The notes under the pieces are model-generated. The model was not told where the DNA came from and searched no databases. It was given only the letters and a program-made list of their open reading frames with translations. This document shows, piece after piece, positions 12,248-23,237 of a DNA stretch of 51,892 nt. Origin of the DNA: Bacteroidales bacterium (GTDB taxonomy: Bacteria > Bacteroidota > Bacteroidia > Bacteroidales > P3). The stretch is taken from NCBI GenBank assembly GCA_016283745.1, contig JAEENM010000006.1:1-51892 (forward strand), in the 5' to 3' direction. The stretch's first letter is position 1; the number at the start of each line of letters is the position of its first letter. The position numbers were made by a program, and so were the translations under genes.

Positions 12248-13255
12248 TTAGCAGTAAAGACGTTGTATCTCGTCGAACAGACGCTGGCGGTCGATAGGCA
12301 CCACACCCACCGTCTCGCACACAATGCCGCCGGCAAGGTTGGAATAGTTGAGCAAAGTTTCTATCGGCAAACCCATTGACAGACAGAGCGTTGCCACGCT
12401 TATCACCGTATCGCCCGCACCCGACACGTCGGAAATTTTGCGCAGATGAGCAGGAACCAAAACCGTCTCGGCCTTGCCACCTCTGAAATCGGCTATAAAA
12501 GCGCCTCTCTCCGAAAGGGTAATAAACACAATGTCAATTCCTTGCGCTTCGTGCAGACGCTCGGCTGCGGAGCGGAGCGTGTCGATGTCGGCATTTTTCG
12601 CATCCACGCCAAGACCTTCGGAGAGCTCTTTCAAGTTGGGTTTAAAGAGTGTTACATCCTTGAAATTCAAAAAGTTGCGATGTTTCGGATCCACGGTGGT
12701 GGGTATGTTGCGCGACTTGGCCATGGCGGTGATTTCGGCAATCACGCGCGGTGTTATGCAACCTTTGTCGTAGTCCTGAAAAACGATGGCGTTTATTGTC
12801 TTGGTTTCGAGTAAGTTGGCGACTTTTTCGATAAGTCGTTGCTCATCTTCCGCCGACAGCGGGTCGGTTATCTCTTTGTCCACACGCAGCAACTGGGTAT
12901 TGTTGCCGATGATGCGGTATTTTACTGTAGTTATGCGTGTTGCGGAGGTCAAGATTCCTTCGGAGGACATATCAGCTTTGTCCATCATAGCCTCGAAGTC
13001 GTGACTTTTGGCATCGTCGCCCAAAACGGTGCAGAGGATGGGGTTGGCACCCAAGGCGCGGATGTTGAGGGCCACGTTGGCAGCGCCGCCCAGACGGTTC
13101 TCGCGACGTGTCTCGGCCACCACAGGCACGGGAGCCTCGGGCGAGATACGGTCCACGCCGCCCCAGAGGTAAGCGTCGATCATCACATCGCCCACGATAA
13201 GCACATTCTGCGTGCCGAGCTGCGACTTAAACTTTTCAAAATCGTTCATACTCAT
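12248..13255 (-). CDS. PfkB family kinase, RfaE1/HldE kinase-domain type
   Basis: LIVGDVMIDAYLWGGVDRISPEAPVPVV, RLGGAANVALNI, DVSGAGDTVIS. Confidence 0.87.
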   Translation of the reverse strand: MSMNDFEKFKSQLGTQNVLIVGDVMIDAYLWGGVDRISPEAPVPVVAETRRENRLGGAANVALNIRALGANPILCTVLGDDAKSHDFEAMMDKADMSSEGILTSATRITTVKYRIIGNNTQLLRVDKEITDPLSAEDEQRLIEKVANLLETKTINAIVFQDYDKGCITPRVIAEITAMAKSRNIPTTVDPKHRNFLNFKDVTLFKPNLKELSEGLGVDAKNADIDTLRSAAERLHEAQGIDIVFITLSERGAFIADFRGGKAETVLVPAHLRKISDVSGAGDTVISVATLCLSMGLPIETLLNYSNLAGGIVCETVGVVPIDRQRLFDEIQRLYC

Positions 13256-14262
13256 ACAGTTATCTCCCCTCTTAGTGATTGTGTCAGCATCTTGCGGATG
13301 GTATCCCTATCTTTGTAGTTTCCAAGCAGATACATAAGTTTTGTAATGGCGGCTTCAAGGGTGATGTCGTAGCCGCTCACCACGCCGATACGTCCTAGGT
13401 CGAGGCTGGTGGCGTAGAGTCCGATACGCACAGTGCCTGATTTACACTGGGTTACGTCGTAAATCACGATTCCCCTGTCGGCGGCACGTTGCAAAGCTTC
13501 TATAAACCAGTCCTCGGTGGGAGCGTTGCCCGAGCCGTACGACGAAAGCACAACGCCCTCCAAGTCAGGCGTTTCCAGAACGGAATTGACGAATTTAGGG
13601 GTAATTCCGGGGAACAGGGTGAGTATGGCAACGTTGGTGTTGAGGTTTTTATTTACCTTAAAATCAGTGCTTTCGGGATAGAACACCAGATGTTTGTTGT
13701 AGCTGATGTCGATGCCGGCCATAGCCATCGGCGGGTAGTTGAACGAGGAGAAAGCGTCGAAATTCTGCGCGCTGATTTTGGTGCTTCGGTTGCCGCGGAA
13801 GAGCTTGTCCTCAAAGAAAATCGACACTTCTGGAACATTCAGTTTCTGGGCGGAAGCTATCTCCAAGGCCCCCACGATATTGCCACGGCCGTCGCTGCGG
13901 AGCATGCCCAGAGGCAGCTGCGAGCCAGTAAGCACCACGGGTTTGCCGAGGTTTTCGAGCATGAAACTCAATGCCGAGGCGGTGTAGGCCATGGTGTCGG
14001 TGCCGTGGAGGATTACAAATCCGTCGTACTTATCGTATTCTCTTTCAATAATTTGCACTATATCCACCCACACTTCCGCACACATGTTCGACGAGTCGAT
14101 AATGGGTTTCAACTGGCAAGAGTCGATGCGGTAGGAGACTTTCTTGAGCAGAGGCACGGCATCGCTAATGCGGTCAAGCTCAAAGGGTTGCAGCACCCCT
14201 TGCTCGTTCTGCACCATGCCGATAGTGCCTCCCGTATATATCATCAAAACGGCGTTATTCAT
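13252..14262 (-). CDS. ansA: Type I L-asparaginase
   Basis: IYTGGTIGM, HGTDTMAYTASALSFML, GSQLPLG. Confidence 0.92.
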   Translation of the reverse strand: MNNAVLMIYTGGTIGMVQNEQGVLQPFELDRISDAVPLLKKVSYRIDSCQLKPIIDSSNMCAEVWVDIVQIIEREYDKYDGFVILHGTDTMAYTASALSFMLENLGKPVVLTGSQLPLGMLRSDGRGNIVGALEIASAQKLNVPEVSIFFEDKLFRGNRSTKISAQNFDAFSSFNYPPMAMAGIDISYNKHLVFYPESTDFKVNKNLNTNVAILTLFPGITPKFVNSVLETPDLEGVVLSSYGSGNAPTEDWFIEALQRAADRGIVIYDVTQCKSGTVRIGLYATSLDLGRIGVVSGYDITLEAAITKLMYLLGNYKDRDTIRKMLTQSLRGEITV

Positions 14263-14632: not shown

Positions 14633-15700
14633 ATGCCCTCGAACAAAAACGCTGTAACACGCTATCAGATAATCGACAGACTTCTGGCCAACAGGTACAA
14701 GGACTACTCCATTGGCGACATCACCAAGCTGGTGAACGAGGAATTGGAAGAAATGGGTATAAAACCTGTTACCAAACGGACTATCGAAATGGATATCAAT
14801 TATTTGGAAGATAAAGGCCCATTCTATGTGGATATTGATCGTTATGAGATTGAGGAAATCAGTCAGAAAGACCTGAAACCCCACAAGAAAACCTGTCTGC
14901 GATATGTGGACCGCACTTTCTCCATATTTAAAAAGAAATTTACAGAGGATGAGCAATTTCTTCTCTCCGAGGCGTTGTCGCTGCTGGGACAGTTCGACGG
15001 ACTGCCAGATTTCGAGGGACTGGAGTCGTTGCGCGGCAAGGTGGAGATAAAGGACAGACCTCGGATTGTGGCGTTCGACAAAAATCCGTTGGAAGGCACC
15101 ACGGTGTTTGGCGAGCTGTTCACCGCCATATCGCAAAAAACGGTGGTGGAACTGCATCTGCACGTCTTTCAAGCACCCGACACCGATATTGTCTTTAAAG
15201 TCCATCCATACCTGCTCAAGGAGTACAACCGCCGGTGGTACCTGTTTGGCGCCGAATTCCAAACGGAGAATATTATGAACTTCGCCCTCGACCGCATCGA
15301 CAGCGTGGAGCCGTTGCCCAACCACAAATTTGTGCCCTGCGACTGCGACCTAGACGAGCGTTTTGAGGATATAATAGGCGTTACTTACGATCCCGACAAG
15401 CATGTGCAGGAGATAGTCTTCTGGGTGAGCGACCGCTCGAAGGATTACGTGGCCACCAAACCCTTGCACGACTCGCAATGCAATTTCCGAAGCGAGCGTG
15501 AAAAAGATCTCCGGCAGGCCTATCCGCAACTCCCGGCAGGTGCCTTTTTCAGTATCAAATGTCGCGAGAACTACGAGCTGCTGCGCGAGCTATCCTCCTT
15601 CGGCAAGGAACTGATAGTACTTTCGCCAAAAGAGATACAAAAGGCCATTTTTGACAAAATTGGCGAGATGTGCGAAAGGTACAAAGATGTAATTGGTTGA
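14633..15700 (+). CDS. WYL-domain transcriptional regulator
   Basis: N-terminal winged-HTH-like region; C-terminal VKTVVELHLHVFQ / HPYLLKEYNRRWYLFG WYL-type region. Confidence 0.85.
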   Translation: MPSNKNAVTRYQIIDRLLANRYKDYSIGDITKLVNEELEEMGIKPVTKRTIEMDINYLEDKGPFYVDIDRYEIEEISQKDLKPHKKTCLRYVDRTFSIFKKKFTEDEQFLLSEALSLLGQFDGLPDFEGLESLRGKVEIKDRPRIVAFDKNPLEGTTVFGELFTAISQKTVVELHLHVFQAPDTDIVFKVHPYLLKEYNRRWYLFGAEFQTENIMNFALDRIDSVEPLPNHKFVPCDCDLDERFEDIIGVTYDPDKHVQEIVFWVSDRSKDYVATKPLHDSQCNFRSEREKDLRQAYPQLPAGAFFSIKCRENYELLRELSSFGKELIVLSPKEIQKAIFDKIGEMCERYKDVIG

Positions 15701-15768: not shown

Positions 15769-15776
15769 TATCTTTG
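15769..15776 (+). promoter_or_regulatory. -7 box TATCTTTG upstream of the Fic gene
   Basis: cgTATCTTTGcaaaa 22 nt before ATG 15798. Confidence 0.55.
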
Positions 15777-15797
15777 CAAAACGAAAACGAAGACAGT

Positions 15798-16988
15798 ATG
15801 ACCGACAAACAGTTGTATATCAATTTCGACGAGTACATACGTCAGGGCGAACCTGCCAAGCGCGAGGCGGCCTATGCTTGGAGTACGGCCATAGGCCTGC
15901 AGGCTGTGGACGGACTTAAAACATCTGATTATCTTAACCAACTGGCACAGCGCAATATCGAAGGCGAAATATCTATCGACGAGGTTGACCGCCTGCTGAA
16001 CAGCTACTACGAAAGCAAGGTTAGACGCGACACCAACGACAACGATAAAGAGGAAGCCGACAAAGCATCTAAAAACATTAAGCGGATACTCTCGTCCAAG
16101 ACATTCGATTTCTCTACAAAAGGCTATATTTCAGTACATCGTCGTATTTTCGAAGGAGTGCTTAAGCATGCAGGCGAATTGCGTAAATACGACATCGTAA
16201 AACGCGAGTGGGTACTGGAAGGCGACACGGTGAGCTATCTCAACTGGGAGGATTTGCACCGTGCCATCGACCACGACATTGAGCAGGAACGTAACTTCAG
16301 TTACAAGGGTATCGGCAATGATGAGCTGGTGGCTCATGTAGCCAAGTTTGTCTCTGGCATGTGGCAGATTCATGCCTTCGGTGAAGGAAATACACGTGCC
16401 ACGGCCGTATTTGCCATACAGTATTTGCGGTCGATGGGTTTTGATGTTGAGAACGACCTTTTTGCCAAACACTCGTGGTATTTCCGCAATGCCCTTGTAA
16501 GAGCCAACTATAAAAATGTCAAAAAGGGTATCGACTACAGTCCGGTTTATCTTGAACGTTTCTTCCGCAATTTGCTTTTGGGCGAACAATGGGATCTGCG
16601 CAACCGCTATCTGCATATCAACCCACCGGCAGAATGGAAAGAGCAGCCCAATCTAGCCACAAGCACCCCACAAGCACCCCACAAGCACCCCACAAGCACC
16701 CCACAAGTACAGGACAAGTTACACAATGAGAATCCAAATATTAAAAAATTGATTCTAGCGGTTGGTAAAAAGGAATTGTCCGTAAAAGAAATAATGGACG
16801 TTCTTGGACTTAAAGATAGAAAAAATGTTTTGAACCTCTATCTTAATCCTGCTATAACGGATGGCTATTTGCGCCTGCTGTACCCCCAAACCCCCCGCCA
16901 TCCGCGCCAGAAATATCTGCTTACCACCGAGGGACAAACGCTTTATAAAGCAATAATTTCCCCCGAAAACTCCTCAAAAACTCAATGA
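15798..16988 (+). CDS. Fic family protein with N-terminal VbhA-antitoxin-like region and C-terminal winged-HTH-like domain
   Basis: STAIGLQAVDGLKTSDYLNQLAQRNIEGEISIDEVDRLL; Fic motif HAFGEGNTRATAVF; TSTPQ linker; C-terminal ELSVKEIMDVLGLKDRKNVLNLYLNPAI. Confidence 0.87.
   Translation: MTDKQLYINFDEYIRQGEPAKREAAYAWSTAIGLQAVDGLKTSDYLNQLAQRNIEGEISIDEVDRLLNSYYESKVRRDTNDNDKEEADKASKNIKRILSSKTFDFSTKGYISVHRRIFEGVLKHAGELRKYDIVKREWVLEGDTVSYLNWEDLHRAIDHDIEQERNFSYKGIGNDELVAHVAKFVSGMWQIHAFGEGNTRATAVFAIQYLRSMGFDVENDLFAKHSWYFRNALVRANYKNVKKGIDYSPVYLERFFRNLLLGEQWDLRNRYLHINPPAEWKEQPNLATSTPQAPHKHPTSTPQVQDKLHNENPNIKKLILAVGKKELSVKEIMDVLGLKDRKNVLNLYLNPAITDGYLRLLYPQTPRHPRQKYLLTTEGQTLYKAIISPENSSKTQ
16657..16710 (+). 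repeat. 11-nt tandem repeat (CCACAAGCACC, 4 perfect plus 1 partial copy) inside the fic ORF
   Basis: ccacaagcacc at 16657, 16668, 16679, 16690; ccacaagtac at 16701. Confidence 0.95.
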
Positions 16989-17079
16989 AAATAACCGAAA
17001 AACGTCCTTTTTGCCGAGTGTACGGCACTAAAACACAATGTTTTGCGATGGTGCGAAAATAGGTTTCGTGGTGTTTTCG

Positions 17080-17087
17080 TATCTTTG
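17080..17087 (+). promoter_or_regulatory. -7 box TATCTTTG
   Basis: cgTATCTTTGcag before ATG 17115. Confidence 0.55.
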
Positions 17088-17114
17088 CAGCGTAAAACGG
17101 AAGTGAAACCAAAA

Positions 17115-17537
17115 ATGAGAACAATGAAAAAGATTAAAGAGTATTTCCAAGAAAGATTCGAACAGGTGAGAGTGCCAGTAATATCGTTTGAACACAACGA
17201 CATGACGCTGAACTTTCTTATAGACACCGGCTCCGACTGCTCGTTTATACGAAGCGAGATTGTTAGCAAACTCGATGTAATAAAACGCATTGATAGTGAC
17301 AATGTAATACAGACCGCAAATGGAGAAGCAAAAGGCGGCGGCAAAGTTTTTATTGAGATGAGGCGCGGCAGATGCAAGGTGCAACAGCTGTTCATTATAC
17401 ACGATGGCGTTAGAATATGGGACAACGACACGTTGGAGAACGGAGAGTTTATGCTTCACGGTATCTTGGGATGTAATTTCCTGAGAAAGCACAATTTCAA
17501 AATCAACTTTAAGACAATGAAAATGTGTGGGGCGTAA
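17115..17537 (+). CDS. Small single-domain retropepsin-like aspartyl protease
   Basis: LNFLIDTGSDCSFIRSEIV (DTGS) and GILGCNFLRKHNFKINF (ILG...F); start 17115 or 17124. Confidence 0.75.
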   Translation: MRTMKKIKEYFQERFEQVRVPVISFEHNDMTLNFLIDTGSDCSFIRSEIVSKLDVIKRIDSDNVIQTANGEAKGGGKVFIEMRRGRCKVQQLFIIHDGVRIWDNDTLENGEFMLHGILGCNFLRKHNFKINFKTMKMCGA

Positions 17538-17637: not shown

Positions 17638-18195
17638 ATGAAAATAATATCTGAAAAACAGTACGGTAACGTAAAGGTGGTTAAAAACTCTGATTGGAAG
17701 TGGGCGGTGACAGATCTTGAAGGCAATGAAATTGTGCCTTTTGGAAAATATGATTGGATTTATGGTTTTGACCATGGCTTGGCGAGAGTTAGGATTGGAA
17801 AACGCAAGTCAGAACCTGTGATAATTAATGGTCATATTGATATTTTCAGTTTGGGTAAGGTTTATGGAAAGGGTGCGCCAATTAGTAAGGACACAGGGGA
17901 AAAGTATGGTATAATAAATGAAAAAGGAGTTGAGGTTGTACCTGTGGAATACGACGATATTTGGAATTTTATTGGGAAAGAATGGAAATGGGTTACTGCC
18001 GACAAAGATGGGGAGAGAACTAGTATTGATTTTTGTTTGCTTGATGGCTGGCACGACATTGGAGATAACAATAATGAGTGCGATTATAATGAGCGTGATT
18101 ACGACTATGATTATCAGGATAGAATGAGAGACATTGTTGATTCGTATGACGATGCTTTTGATGGAGATCCTGAAGCATATTGGAATATTGACTAA
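17638..18195 (+). CDS. WG-repeat-containing protein
   Basis: WKWAVTDLEGNEIVPFGKYDWIYGFDHGLARV and KYGIINEKGVEVVPVEYDDIWNF. Confidence 0.8.
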   Translation: MKIISEKQYGNVKVVKNSDWKWAVTDLEGNEIVPFGKYDWIYGFDHGLARVRIGKRKSEPVIINGHIDIFSLGKVYGKGAPISKDTGEKYGIINEKGVEVVPVEYDDIWNFIGKEWKWVTADKDGERTSIDFCLLDGWHDIGDNNNECDYNERDYDYDYQDRMRDIVDSYDDAFDGDPEAYWNID

Positions 18196-18223: not shown

Positions 18224-18231
18224 TATATTTG
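18224..18231 (+). promoter_or_regulatory. -7 box TATATTTG
   Basis: aatcgTATATTTGcaaaaca before ATG 18265; overlaps the ORF-track start (18229), so 18265 is the likely start. Confidence 0.65.
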
Positions 18232-18264: not shown

Positions 18265-20823
18265 ATGGAAAACAACAACAATATGTCGGCATGGAATTTT
18301 AATGATAATTATAGAGATTTGATGGGCTTAATACCATCGTCTTTTCATGGTAGATTAATTAAGAATGATAAAGAAGTTGCTTTGCTTATTGCTACTCTTT
18401 ATTATTTGAGGCAAGAGGGCGCTTTAAAAATTGTCAAGAATTCAGAGGTTGATAAAAATAATGAATTTGTAGTTGTGTGTTATGACCAAAATGACGACTT
18501 GTGGTGTGTATGTTGCGATAAAGAAGCGTTATTTGAAATACCTGATGAGTGTTTGACGAAATTGGTTTTGGATTCATTGAAATCATTTCAAGAAGAAGCA
18601 CAAGAACCTCAATACGTTTTGTCTTTCGTTGACGCATTGATTGAGCAGAAGTTTGAACCAGGCGAACTGCTTTCTTTGTTGGATAGGTATATTGACGAAA
18701 TGATTTCTTTTAGAAGGGGAGAGTTTAGTCAGCCACACGAAATTTCATTGTTGCTCTCACATTTGATTGAAAAGGATGTTCATACTGTTTTTGATCCATT
18801 TGGTGGTTTTATGGATTTCGCCACAACTATGCCGGATAAACATTTCGTGTCTTATGAAACAAGTGAATTTGTAAGGAATATAGCAGTCTTTCGCTTGGCC
18901 CTGGCTGGCATTATAAGCCAGACTAGATTGAGTAACGAAAGTGCAGAGAATTGGACAAAAGAAAAATATGATGCTATTGTTACAATGCCTCCATTCAGAG
19001 CCCAGCTGACAATGAGAGATGAATGGTTTCTGACTCAAGACTATAGCAATGCGGAAGAAGTTGTTTTGTCCCGTTTTGAAAACACTACAAATGAGAATGG
19101 ACAACTAGTTATGGTTGTGCCTCTCTCAGCTTTGAACCAATATACGACCCGACGTTACCGAGAAAACTTAACTAAGAATAATTGGCTAGATAAGGTAATC
19201 TTGCTGCCTAGAGACATTTATACTTATACAAGAGTGTCAACAGCAATTATAGTTTTAAAGAAAAACAGACAGAAAGATGCCCCGATTCGGTTTGTTGACG
19301 CTTCTTCTTGTGTTAAAGAATCTGATAGGAGAAATCATTGTGGACAACTTGATTTGAGTGCGGTTTTAAATTATTTGTCTGAGCCTGAGGATGGTAGTCG
19401 TTCGTTAGACGTTTGTCGTTCGGAGATATTATCTCATGATGCATCATGGCTTGTTGGCTGGTATTTATATCTGCGAAATGAGAGTGGTAGCTATAGAGAA
19501 GGTGCTGTACCGGTTCCTTTTAGTGATGTTTTGGAGAGGGCACGTGGAACAAGATTTGACGAAACGACTGGACGAGTGATAACAGTGAGTGATCTTTCTA
19601 AAGCAGACATTTCGAATTATAATTGTTTGTTGGATGAAATTTCGATGTCAAATAATTTGGAACACACCAAAAAACTGACAGAACCAGTGTTGTTAATATC
19701 TTCTAATAACGTCTCTTTCCCTGTTTTTTGCAAAGCGTCACAAGAAATGCCGATATATGTAAAGCCTAATGTTTCAGCATATATCATAAAAGATGCGACT
19801 GTTAATATTGGATATCTTTGTGTGGAACTGTATGATAGGCTAAATTTTTTAAATAAATACGTTTCGTTTAATTCTTTAAATAGGCTTTATGAAAAAATCA
19901 ATATTTCAATACCTTCACTGTCAGAGCAAAAGAATTTGTTTGAAGAGGCTAAAAATATAGCAGTAGAAGGGATTGTAAAAGCACATGGTCTTCAAAATAT
20001 TATACGTGAATTAGTTGCAGATAATAAAAAGCAGTTTAGGGCTAGAAAACATTCATTGATGCAAAACTCTGTGTCGTTGGCTGCCGACTGGCAAGATTTG
20101 AAAGAGTACTTGTTGGGTAATGATGGAAAATTTGATGTAGATGATACTATCGGGATACTGAATCCGCTAAAAATCAGCGAAATTATTGATTCTATTTCCG
20201 AAAATATCGAGATTATGGAGAAAAAGATTAATAAACTGACTGATGAGGATATAGATTGGGGGCAGGCAGAGGAAATAGATTTGCGGGATTTTATCAATAA
20301 ATATATCAAAGGCCACCAGACAACTAGATATAGGTTTGAGTTTGAGCCAGAACGAAATGAAATTTTGAAGACGAAAGTCCTTATGAATTCCGAAGAAAGC
20401 AAAGTCGCTGTTGTGCTTATTTCTAAGAAGGCTTTGCTTCAAGTGTTCGACAACATCGTGTCGAATGCGAGAGACCATGGCTTTGTTTTTGATGACAATC
20501 GGATCGTCGATTATGCTGTCAAGTTTGACATTACTTATAATTTTGACTGCATCGTGTTGGAGATATCAAATAATGGAAAGGCACTTAGTGATGGCGTTGA
20601 TAGCGATTACATCAAAACTAATGGCAGTAGTACCAAATTGAATGTAATGGGAGAAAATATTAAAGCGGCGCATTCTGGTTTTGGAGGGTATGAAACTGAC
20701 ACCATATTGAAAAAGTATAACGCAACTATGGAGGTGATTTCAAACCCTGATGCCATGTATACTGTGACTTATCGGATTGTCTTCAAAGACACCAACGTTA
20801 GTGGTGATGTGTCGGATTATTAA
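18265..20823 (+). CDS. N6-adenine-methylase-like/HsdS-like protein fused to C-terminal histidine-kinase-type DHp and HATPase modules
   Basis: DPFGGFMDF (motif I-like), VTMPPF (motif IV-like, Met in place of N/D/S), NISIPSLSEQKNLFEEA (HsdS-like tail), RARKHSLMQNSVSL (possible H-box), LLQVFDNIVSNARDHGF (N-box), EISNNGKAL (G1-like), HSGFGGYETDTILKKYNATMEVIS (G2-like). Confidence 0.8.
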   Translation: MENNNNMSAWNFNDNYRDLMGLIPSSFHGRLIKNDKEVALLIATLYYLRQEGALKIVKNSEVDKNNEFVVVCYDQNDDLWCVCCDKEALFEIPDECLTKLVLDSLKSFQEEAQEPQYVLSFVDALIEQKFEPGELLSLLDRYIDEMISFRRGEFSQPHEISLLLSHLIEKDVHTVFDPFGGFMDFATTMPDKHFVSYETSEFVRNIAVFRLALAGIISQTRLSNESAENWTKEKYDAIVTMPPFRAQLTMRDEWFLTQDYSNAEEVVLSRFENTTNENGQLVMVVPLSALNQYTTRRYRENLTKNNWLDKVILLPRDIYTYTRVSTAIIVLKKNRQKDAPIRFVDASSCVKESDRRNHCGQLDLSAVLNYLSEPEDGSRSLDVCRSEILSHDASWLVGWYLYLRNESGSYREGAVPVPFSDVLERARGTRFDETTGRVITVSDLSKADISNYNCLLDEISMSNNLEHTKKLTEPVLLISSNNVSFPVFCKASQEMPIYVKPNVSAYIIKDATVNIGYLCVELYDRLNFLNKYVSFNSLNRLYEKINISIPSLSEQKNLFEEAKNIAVEGIVKAHGLQNIIRELVADNKKQFRARKHSLMQNSVSLAADWQDLKEYLLGNDGKFDVDDTIGILNPLKISEIIDSISENIEIMEKKINKLTDEDIDWGQAEEIDLRDFINKYIKGHQTTRYRFEFEPERNEILKTKVLMNSEESKVAVVLISKKALLQVFDNIVSNARDHGFVFDDNRIVDYAVKFDITYNFDCIVLEISNNGKALSDGVDSDYIKTNGSSTKLNVMGENIKAAHSGFGGYETDTILKKYNATMEVISNPDAMYTVTYRIVFKDTNVSGDVSDY

Positions 20824-20861
20824 GATGGTAAAATTTTAAATACACGAAAAGTAATATAGAT

Positions 20862-21911
20862 ATGAGCGAGAACAAAGATTTCTATAAGGTTTTGTGGGTT
20901 GAAGACGACCCCAAGGTAACTAGGTCTATTCCTAGAAGAGCAGAAAAACATTTTCTTGCACTAAGACCGTTTCCGTGTTGGGATGATGCCCAGATGGAAT
21001 TGGAGAAAGATTTTGATTCATGGGATGCCATTATTTTGGACGCTAAATGCAGACATCATAGAGGTAGCAAAGATGAAGCAAAAGAGTTTCTTCGAGAAGC
21101 ATTGTCTGAGATTAAGGCTATATGTCGGGAAAAAGGACGACAATTGAGTTGGTATGTTCTTACAGGAGAAGGAGGTGCTGATGCGGAATCAATCAACGAG
21201 CTTATTACCGATGAACGCATGAAATGGGATGCGGATTGGACAATTCAGACGGGAAAGAAATTTTATAGTAAAACTATAGAAGATATGGAAATCCTGTTTA
21301 TGCGAGTTAAGCACCATGTTAACCAATCGGAGAGGACACAGATAAAAACGAAGCTTTATTGCGAAGTTTTTGATGCGATGAGCTATTGCAAAATTGCCAC
21401 TTCGGAGATTGATTTAATGGTGGATTTGTTGCTTAATGTTCACAACAATGCGGATGGTATAAAGGCTAATTCTATCATGTGGGAAGCGAGGACGGTGCTT
21501 GAAGGCATTTTTAGAACCATGATTGAGGAGTGGGGAATGCTGCCAGTAGAGTTTATCAAGAACAGCAAGAAAGACCAAATCAATCTTACTTGGTCTTATC
21601 TGCTTCTTTCGGGCGTCACCGTGAATGCCGATACTAAGTTGTTTACATATAACCAGCGTGTAATAACAGATGTAATGAAGTACCAGATTCAAAACATCAT
21701 TGAATATACTGGAGAGTTTATTCATACTAGCAGTTCCAAAAAGCAGAACAACAAGACGGATGTAAAAGACTATCAGAATGCTGTGAAGAATTCGGCTTAT
21801 TTGGTGTATGTTATGACAATGAGCCTTTGCAATGTGATTCTTTGGTTTAAGAATTACGTTATGGCTCATCCCAACTATGAGGACAATAAAAAAGATTGGA
21901 AAATAATCTAA
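20862..21911 (+). CDS. Response-regulator receiver-domain protein with uncharacterised helical C-terminus
   Basis: VLWVEDDPKV, IILDAKCR (acceptor Asp at 21039), VLTGEGG, QTGKKFYSK; no recognisable DNA-binding domain; 38-nt gap from the kinase gene. Confidence 0.8.
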   Translation: MSENKDFYKVLWVEDDPKVTRSIPRRAEKHFLALRPFPCWDDAQMELEKDFDSWDAIILDAKCRHHRGSKDEAKEFLREALSEIKAICREKGRQLSWYVLTGEGGADAESINELITDERMKWDADWTIQTGKKFYSKTIEDMEILFMRVKHHVNQSERTQIKTKLYCEVFDAMSYCKIATSEIDLMVDLLLNVHNNADGIKANSIMWEARTVLEGIFRTMIEEWGMLPVEFIKNSKKDQINLTWSYLLLSGVTVNADTKLFTYNQRVITDVMKYQIQNIIEYTGEFIHTSSSKKQNNKTDVKDYQNAVKNSAYLVYVMTMSLCNVILWFKNYVMAHPNYEDNKKDWKII

Positions 21912-22112: not shown

Positions 22113-22228
22113 TATCAACTGTAAACTATATCAGTGATCTGTGAACAGTGAACTGTGATGAGGAACGGGGAGAATGATTGTTTAACTCCAAATTACTAAT
22201 TCCTCATTACTAATTCCGAATTACTCAA
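22113..22228. repeat. Degenerate 7-nt-periodic tracts
   Basis: gatctgt|gaacagt|gaactgt|gatgagg; ctccaaa|ttactaa|ttcctca|ttactaa|ttccgaa|ttactca. Confidence 0.65.
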
Positions 22229-23237
22229 CAATCGTGTTCCAGTTGTGTTTGTCTTCGGCTTCGCCGAGCTGTATGGCGCGCAGTGCGTTGTACAGTTTTG
22301 TGCTCCACGGGCCGGGTTCTTTGCCGAACACGTAGCTCTTGCCGGTTTCGGGGTCGTCGAGACGCTCGATGGGGCTGATAACGGCTGCAGTACCGCAGGC
22401 GCCGGCTTCTTGGAAGGTGGAGAGCTCTTCAACGTCGATGGGACGGCGTTCCACTTTCATGCCCATATCTTCGGCCAGCTGCATCAGGCTCTTGTTGGTG
22501 ATGGAGGGCAGAATGGAGGTCGATTTCGGAGTGATGTAAGCTCCGTCCTTGATACCGAAGAAGTTGGCGGCACCGGCTTCGTCGACATATTTCTTTTCTT
22601 TTGCGTCGAGGTAGAACTCGCAAGCGTATTCACCGCCGTGGCAGGCTTCCACGTGAGCGCGCAGCGAAGCGGCGTAGTTACCGCCCACTTTATAAACGCC
22701 GGTTCCTAGGGGAGCGCTACGGTCGTATTTGCGGGTGATGACATAGGGGTTGGCTTTGAAACCGCCCTTGAAATAAGGTCCCACGGGGGTTACGAATATC
22801 AGGAACAGGTATTCGTCGGCGGGTTTCACACCCACGGTGATTCCGGTGCCTATCAGCAGGGGACGCAGGTACAGGCTGGCGCCGGTGCCGTAGGGAGGAA
22901 TGAAACGTTCGTTCAGTTTGATGACTTTTTTGCACATCTCCACGAATTTCTCTGTGCTCAGCTCGGGCATCATAATGCCGCGGCAGGTGCTCTGCAGACG
23001 TTCGGCGTTGGCCTCGGGACGGAACATGCGGATTTTGCCGTCTTTGCAGCGGTAGGCTTTCAGACCTTCGAAAGCTTCCTGACCGTAGTGCAGGCTCGAA
23101 GCAGCCATGTGGATGTTTACGTTTTCGTCGGACGAAACTTCAATCTCGCCCCATTCTCCGTTGCGGAAGTAGCAGCGGACGTTGTAATCGGTTTTTACGT
23201 AGCCGAAAGGTAGGCTACCCCAATCTATATTGTTCAT
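22221..23237 (-). CDS. ilvE: Branched-chain amino acid aminotransferase
   Basis: LHYGQEAFEGLKAYRCKDGKIRMFRPEANAERLQ, GTAAVISPI. Confidence 0.93.
   Translation of the reverse strand: MNNIDWGSLPFGYVKTDYNVRCYFRNGEWGEIEVSSDENVNIHMAASSLHYGQEAFEGLKAYRCKDGKIRMFRPEANAERLQSTCRGIMMPELSTEKFVEMCKKVIKLNERFIPPYGTGASLYLRPLLIGTGITVGVKPADEYLFLIFVTPVGPYFKGGFKANPYVITRKYDRSAPLGTGVYKVGGNYAASLRAHVEACHGGEYACEFYLDAKEKKYVDEAGAANFFGIKDGAYITPKSTSILPSITNKSLMQLAEDMGMKVERRPIDVEELSTFQEAGACGTAAVISPIERLDDPETGKSYVFGKEPGPWSTKLYNALRAIQLGEAEDKHNWNTIVE

Follow-up and report, generated by a model that had tools for sequence, protein, structure and literature searches.

A kinase-receiver gene pair with a methyltransferase-derived input region, apparently tied to restriction in Bacteroidota

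We analyzed a 51,892-nucleotide stretch of DNA from a Bacteroidales bacterium (contig JAEENM010000006.1), referred to here as the window, in which two adjacent plus-strand genes form a unit that we call KIN-REC. KIN (18265-20823) encodes an 852-aa fusion of a putative pseudomethylase, a single target-recognition domain (TRD) and a histidine kinase; its reading frame of 852 codons starts with ATG and has no internal stops, and the longer alternative start is an in-frame TTG at 18229. REC (20862-21911) follows after 38 nt and encodes a 349-aa response regulator, composed of a receiver (about residues 1-150) and a mostly helical domain. These coordinates confirm the two-gene unit described in a first-pass annotation of the same DNA.

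Upstream of the pair, also on the plus strand, lie genes for a WYL/WCX-domain regulator (14633-15700; WYL E 1.6e-11 and WCX in Pfam, WYL E 1.2e-22 in PADLOC), a Fic protein (15774-16988; PADLOC candidate PDC-S72, E 4.5e-127), an aspartyl-protease-like protein (17043-17537; weak PADLOC match to PDC-M08B, E 1.6e-8) and a WG-repeat protein (17638-18195). The Fic and aspartyl-protease-like genes (15774-17537) are therefore found between the WYL gene and KIN. From its domain content and its position upstream of defense genes, the WYL gene is a putative WYL defense regulator. Two minus-strand genes named by eye, one asparaginase-like (13252-14262) and one encoding an ilvE-like aminotransferase (22221-23237), border the stretch that holds WYL, Fic, KIN and REC. 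The WG, KIN and REC genes have a G+C content of 36-39% versus 52-55% for these two flanking genes, with the WYL, Fic and protease genes intermediate, and the window pair lies inside a low-GC insert. The flank is variable, since homology with three genomes of the same genus ends just past the aminotransferase gene. No hsdR, hsdM or hsdS gene adjoins the window pair, and the locus itself is not a type I restriction-modification (R-M) locus. The host carries a separate type I R-M locus on another contig (L123 8900-19901, G000:C123) with hsdM, hsdS and an hsdR-like gene, and the stretch of it that was read contains no KIN-REC pair.

Four parts make up KIN: a methylase fold of the HsdM type, a single HsdS-like recognition domain, a helix with a phospho-acceptor histidine and a GHKL ATPase. 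When KIN was searched alone against Pfam, N6_Mtase matched residues 150-376 (18712-19392, plus strand) above the gathering score (E 7e-17), HATPase_c stayed under the cut-off (E 5.6e-4) and the HsdS-like segment had no match. Across 20 KIN relatives, N6_Mtase was found in 18, Methylase_S in 9 and HATPase_c in 19. A family profile built from these 20 relatives was searched against the PDB and matched solved HsdM (EcoR124II M) over positions 6-410 (E 5.5e-55), solved HsdS chains over positions 484-566 (E 2e-12) and, over positions about 567-811, the dimerization and ATPase parts of solved sensor histidine kinases (E 1.8e-13 to 2e-8), not MutL or Hsp90. Profile-profile comparison by hhalign gave E 1.5e-42 against HsdM of the same loci; the single-TRD region as tested (residues 385-570, 19417-19974, plus strand) matched neighboring HsdS with 98.4% probability (E 7.6e-15). 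The methylase fold, which is that of a type I methyltransferase, the HsdS-like segment and the kinase elements that the first-pass annotation had read by eye were thus all recovered. PADLOC 2023 returned MTase matches only for KIN. The structure model of KIN is weak (pLDDT 61), its best PDB matches being type I and related adenine methyltransferases; it predicts a helix after the TRD (residues 552-618) that includes His596, with residues 572-590 modelled at low confidence.

Neither of the two methylase motifs is intact in the window protein. The degenerate motif I reads DPFGGF and lacks GxG (from residue 177, 18793-18810, plus strand), at the very position first proposed, and the degenerate motif IV reads VTMPPF, with Met in place of Asn/Asp/Ser as had been noted, although it begins at 18979 (residue 239, 18979-18996, plus strand), one codon before the 18982 given earlier. 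Both motifs occurred together in 0 of the 31 aligned KIN relatives versus 21 of 21 neighboring genuine HsdM proteins, one of which (L116) belongs to a locus that turned out to be a false kinase match. The loss is a family-wide pattern, overlooked in the first-pass annotation, rather than a single odd Met; the earlier idea of a catalytically altered methylase is supported. The loss of methylation cannot be extended to every member with certainty, because 6 of the 31 have an NPPF/W- or SPPF-type motif IV; a GxG motif I is retained in 3 of the 31, and in the kinase of locus L006 both motifs are entirely gone.

The kinase residues behave differently. The predicted phospho-acceptor His596 (codon 20050-20052, plus strand) lies in the dimerization helix, within the region spanned by the PDB kinase match, and the HATPase_c region (residues 722-837, 20428-20775, plus strand) contains an N-box, G1 (N769-x-G771) and G2; this G1 is NxG and not DxG, its Asn taking the place of the Asp found in most kinases. 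All 31 aligned kinases contain both the H-box His and the NxG of G1, a count that does not represent independent events because the aligned sequences share kinship, as do those of REC. Every invariant column of a 20-member kinase alignment falls in the TRD or kinase parts. The methylase motifs decay differently by lineage and the kinase residues stay. Because the motifs are lost while the acceptor His and G1 are invariant, the methylase part resembles a pseudo-enzyme that has been retained, and the pattern is the one expected if this part serves as the sensor of a functional kinase.

Pfam gave no match to REC alone. The REC family profile matched structures of receivers with a best E of 2.7e-5, and the structure model (pLDDT 82) resembled receiver domains with a target-normalised TM of 0.65-0.71, so that the receiver domain first read from the letters is recovered by both routes. 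The fold carries the acidic pair, acceptor Asp, Thr/Ser and Lys of a response regulator. Asp60, the acceptor (codon 21039-21041, where the first reading had put it), and Lys137 (codon 21270-21272), both on the plus strand, are kept in 32 of 32 receivers, far beyond chance. The C-terminal ~200 residues are mostly helical in the structure model, and Pfam and the fold search recognized no DNA-binding domain in REC. A HEPN assignment for this helical domain, suggested by R..LE and SH residues, was dropped as neither Pfam nor the fold search was supportive. At locus L030 (2438-3385), the receiver is fused to Schlafen AlbA_2, which replaces the usual helical output domain, and McrBC genes come next.

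Scanning genome contigs with one sequence gave no relatives, and an alignment-based search was needed. In all, 34 distinct related loci were found, whose hosts are all Bacteroidota where known. Most matches at E 1e-40 to 1e-58 in the 250- and 388-genome sets described below spanned the methylase part only, corresponded to ordinary HsdM and were left uncounted; G745 was a false kinase match, and its locus holds only genuine HsdM/S/R. REC follows KIN in all 33 loci where the sequence continues. In one class, sampled with 250 genomes, full kinases and strong receivers coincided in the same 8 genomes. Among 388 genomes of the window's class a receiver was present in 13 of 13 kinase genomes (2 with broken or contig-cut kinase genes), and one additional receiver occurred at a CRISPR locus. 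Kinase and receiver distances correlated with r 0.81 (n 29), versus 0.28 for kinase and HsdM and 0.29 for kinase and WYL. The pairing is near-obligate, and the two genes do occur together as a conserved unit. The frequency is about 3% of sampled genomes (11/396, 8/250 and 13/388), in a genome profile search confined to Bacteroidota.

Neighborhoods were counted at the 30 of 34 loci with usable flanks. Type I R-M genes, at least in part, were present at 22 of them, with hsdM and hsdS downstream of the pair at 19 and type I genes on the opposite side at 3. Four loci carry other defense-type genes, namely GmrSD with RhuM (L007), McrBC (L030), AAA15/PLD/UvrD (L028) and a HAD-domain protein with a DprA-like protein (L006), the last being the least certain defense assignment. 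Neither kind of gene was found at 4 loci, the window among them; L032, from another genus, likewise has no adjacent effector, and its genes are intact. A WYL gene precedes the pair at 22 loci, and at three others a divergently transcribed RtcR-like sigma54 activator sits in the WYL slot (L027 11789-13240, L105 6501-7952 and L107 13047-14498; 76-91% identical among them). On the kinase tree, in which the window pair has a long branch, type I R-M and the remaining states must have replaced one another no fewer than 7 times, a number that incomplete flanks may inflate, and this suggests that the pair has associated with more than one kind of effector. The link to defense had been anticipated by the first-pass annotation, which overlooked the WYL gene upstream and the type I R-M genes of the relatives. 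At L008 (Flavobacterium sp. SLB02), L022 and L025, GmrSD-type genes are embedded downstream of hsdS in type I operons, and L002 has a PLD-domain gene in this position.

The nearest described pair is HEF_HK/Response_reg_2 (PF19191, PF19192), which likewise consists of a kinase-like and a receiver-like gene, both for soluble proteins, that lie side by side and are enriched near R-M systems (PMC8011034). The HEF_HK input is a second GHKL domain (HATPase_c_3) whereas that of KIN is methyltransferase-derived, and the HEF_HK pair is mostly Proteobacterial and found mainly with type II R-M and C5 methylases, whereas KIN-REC belongs to Bacteroidota and type I R-M. Neither Pfam model matched any of 20 kinases or 27 receivers at E 0.05, nor did PF19192 match in the window's own genome; by these models, KIN-REC is separate. 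KIN shares its folds with type I HsdM/HsdS, its single TRD being homologous to half an HsdS, but it differs by its eroded motifs, its fused kinase and its lone TRD. Likewise, it has the H-box His, the N, G1 and G2 boxes and the profile match to solved kinases expected of HisKA-type kinases (ThkA, HK853), but its input is cytoplasmic and methyltransferase-derived and its G1 has Asn for Asp. The WYL gene heading most loci recalls the BrxR/CapW regulators, whose description contains no kinase-receiver pair and no occurrence of 'histidine' or 'kinase' (PMC9122601). The architecture is not described in papers on RptR (PMC12255303), the BREX landscape (PMC12839542) or EVE (PMC7641849), and searches for MADS and Detocs turned up no relevant paper. 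A figure legend of the DefensePredictor paper places HATPase and REC among predicted systems, which may or may not be this family (PMC13092281). Our search of the literature, which covered few subscription papers and no preprints, returned no description of the family. KIN-REC is a real and conserved kinase-receiver family with a methyltransferase-derived input that is, provisionally, undescribed, and it apparently represents two-component signaling tied to restriction.

Our model, which we consider somewhat probable, is that of a soluble two-component pair with an input derived from a type I methyltransferase that would control the associated defense functions. The input domain would have been recruited from such an enzyme, and the HsdM-like and single-TRD regions would have lost methylation and probably retained DNA binding. 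Type I methyltransferases act as M2S complexes with two TRDs, and histidine kinases act as dimers. KIN is one M plus one half-S; therefore, a dimer would supply two of each, and two KIN copies dimerized through the kinase could restore a reader of the M2S type that has a pair of recognition domains. Binding to DNA would then be signaled to His596 along the helix that follows the TRD; because the predicted helix contains this residue, it could couple DNA reading mechanically to the acceptor. We hypothesize that the GHKL domain phosphorylates His596 and that the phosphate passes to Asp60 of REC, whose output domain would act on the associated defense, usually type I R-M and elsewhere GmrSD, McrBC or others. 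The target of phosphorylated REC may be the defense machine itself or the WYL or sigma54 regulator, the direction of control being conjectural. For the window pair, the candidate targets are the neighboring Fic gene and the host's separate type I R-M locus, which is a possible partner in trans. As the pair is conserved across many Bacteroidota beside restriction systems, the cell probably reads DNA and adjusts its defenses by phosphorylation through KIN-REC, and we infer an anti-phage role.

A narrower form of this model, which we hold only tentatively and would not bet on, is that the phosphorelay senses whether DNA is methylated, the dimer of a dead type I methyltransferase recognizing its target sequence in unmodified or foreign form and arming interchangeable restriction effectors. 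If true, self and non-self DNA would be turned into a His-Asp signal. Points against the general model are the Asn in G1, the missing restriction effector at the window locus, the weak structure model of the kinase, the unassigned output domain of REC and the NPPF-like motif IV in 6 of 31 relatives.

The WYL or RtcR-sigma54 regulator gene present at most loci would also fit a transcriptional two-component system for the neighboring operon, whose signal is not foreign DNA. In that case, the phosphorylated receiver would work through the WYL or sigma54 regulator, and the methylase-derived part would only anchor the kinase on a DNA site or sense SAM or another ligand. There is a parallel in Marinomonas mediterranea, where a histidine kinase and a response regulator are reported to control CRISPR-Cas expression (PMC8523701). 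However, REC lacks a recognized DNA-binding domain, the correlation between kinase and WYL is weak (0.29), and the type of regulator can switch while the pair stays, so that we regard this explanation as rather unlikely.

The Asn in G1 would also fit a role other than phosphorelay. The GHKL domain might instead use ATP to clamp or assemble the restriction complex, which has been proposed for MORC/paraMORC, GHKL ATPases known from R-M operons (PMC2292703). MORC proteins combine GHKL with an S5 domain and go with superfamily II helicases, and receivers are absent from that text. The acceptor His in 31 of 31 kinases, Asp60 and Lys137 in 32 of 32 receivers, the co-divergence of kinase and receiver and the PDB matches to sensor histidine kinases, not to MutL or Hsp90, make a clamp improbable. 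Slightly less probable still is an orphan state of the window pair, in which effector and function have both been lost. The absence of a restriction gene beside it, its long branch and a visibly broken relative (L117) would agree with decay; both window genes are nonetheless intact, with every kinase and receiver residue retained, and L032 likewise has intact genes and no adjacent effector. That KIN is an active DNA methyltransferase with an attached regulatory kinase is scarcely credible, as the partial motifs in 6 (motif IV) and 3 (motif I) of 31 relatives never occur together, the window protein has neither and L006 has lost both.

The control and switching-on of restriction systems are poorly known. 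A methyltransferase-derived sensor kinase beside type I R-M genes would connect DNA recognition directly, at the molecular level, with the control of defense. Since the pair is genetically simple, conserved and associated with multiple effectors, the idea is accessible in vitro with two proteins, ATP and DNA.

Copies of the pair also turned up in plasmid, phage and IMG/VR sequences. In the plasmid collection, receiver and near-full-length kinase matches came only from Myroides, whose plasmid carries one KIN-REC copy. The phage collection yielded a single match, MT835483, where a WYL-KIN-REC-hsdM-hsdS-hsdR block follows a gene identified by eye as a conjugative coupling protein; for this reason, MT835483 may represent not a phage but a mobile element. 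An IMG/VR contig (L041 9575-13322) has the pair after phage-like and muramidase genes, as if it were prophage cargo. In L117 (G955:C3, 843-5373) the WYL gene and receiver are present and the kinase gene is broken by stops, which marks a decayed copy. Finally, a receiver of the REC family (L149 421-1311, G813:C237; profile E 1.4e-32) lies directly before Cas6 and reverse transcriptase genes and is preceded by a RAMP-like ORF recognized by eye, in an apparent CRISPR-Cas locus on a short contig that carries no kinase.
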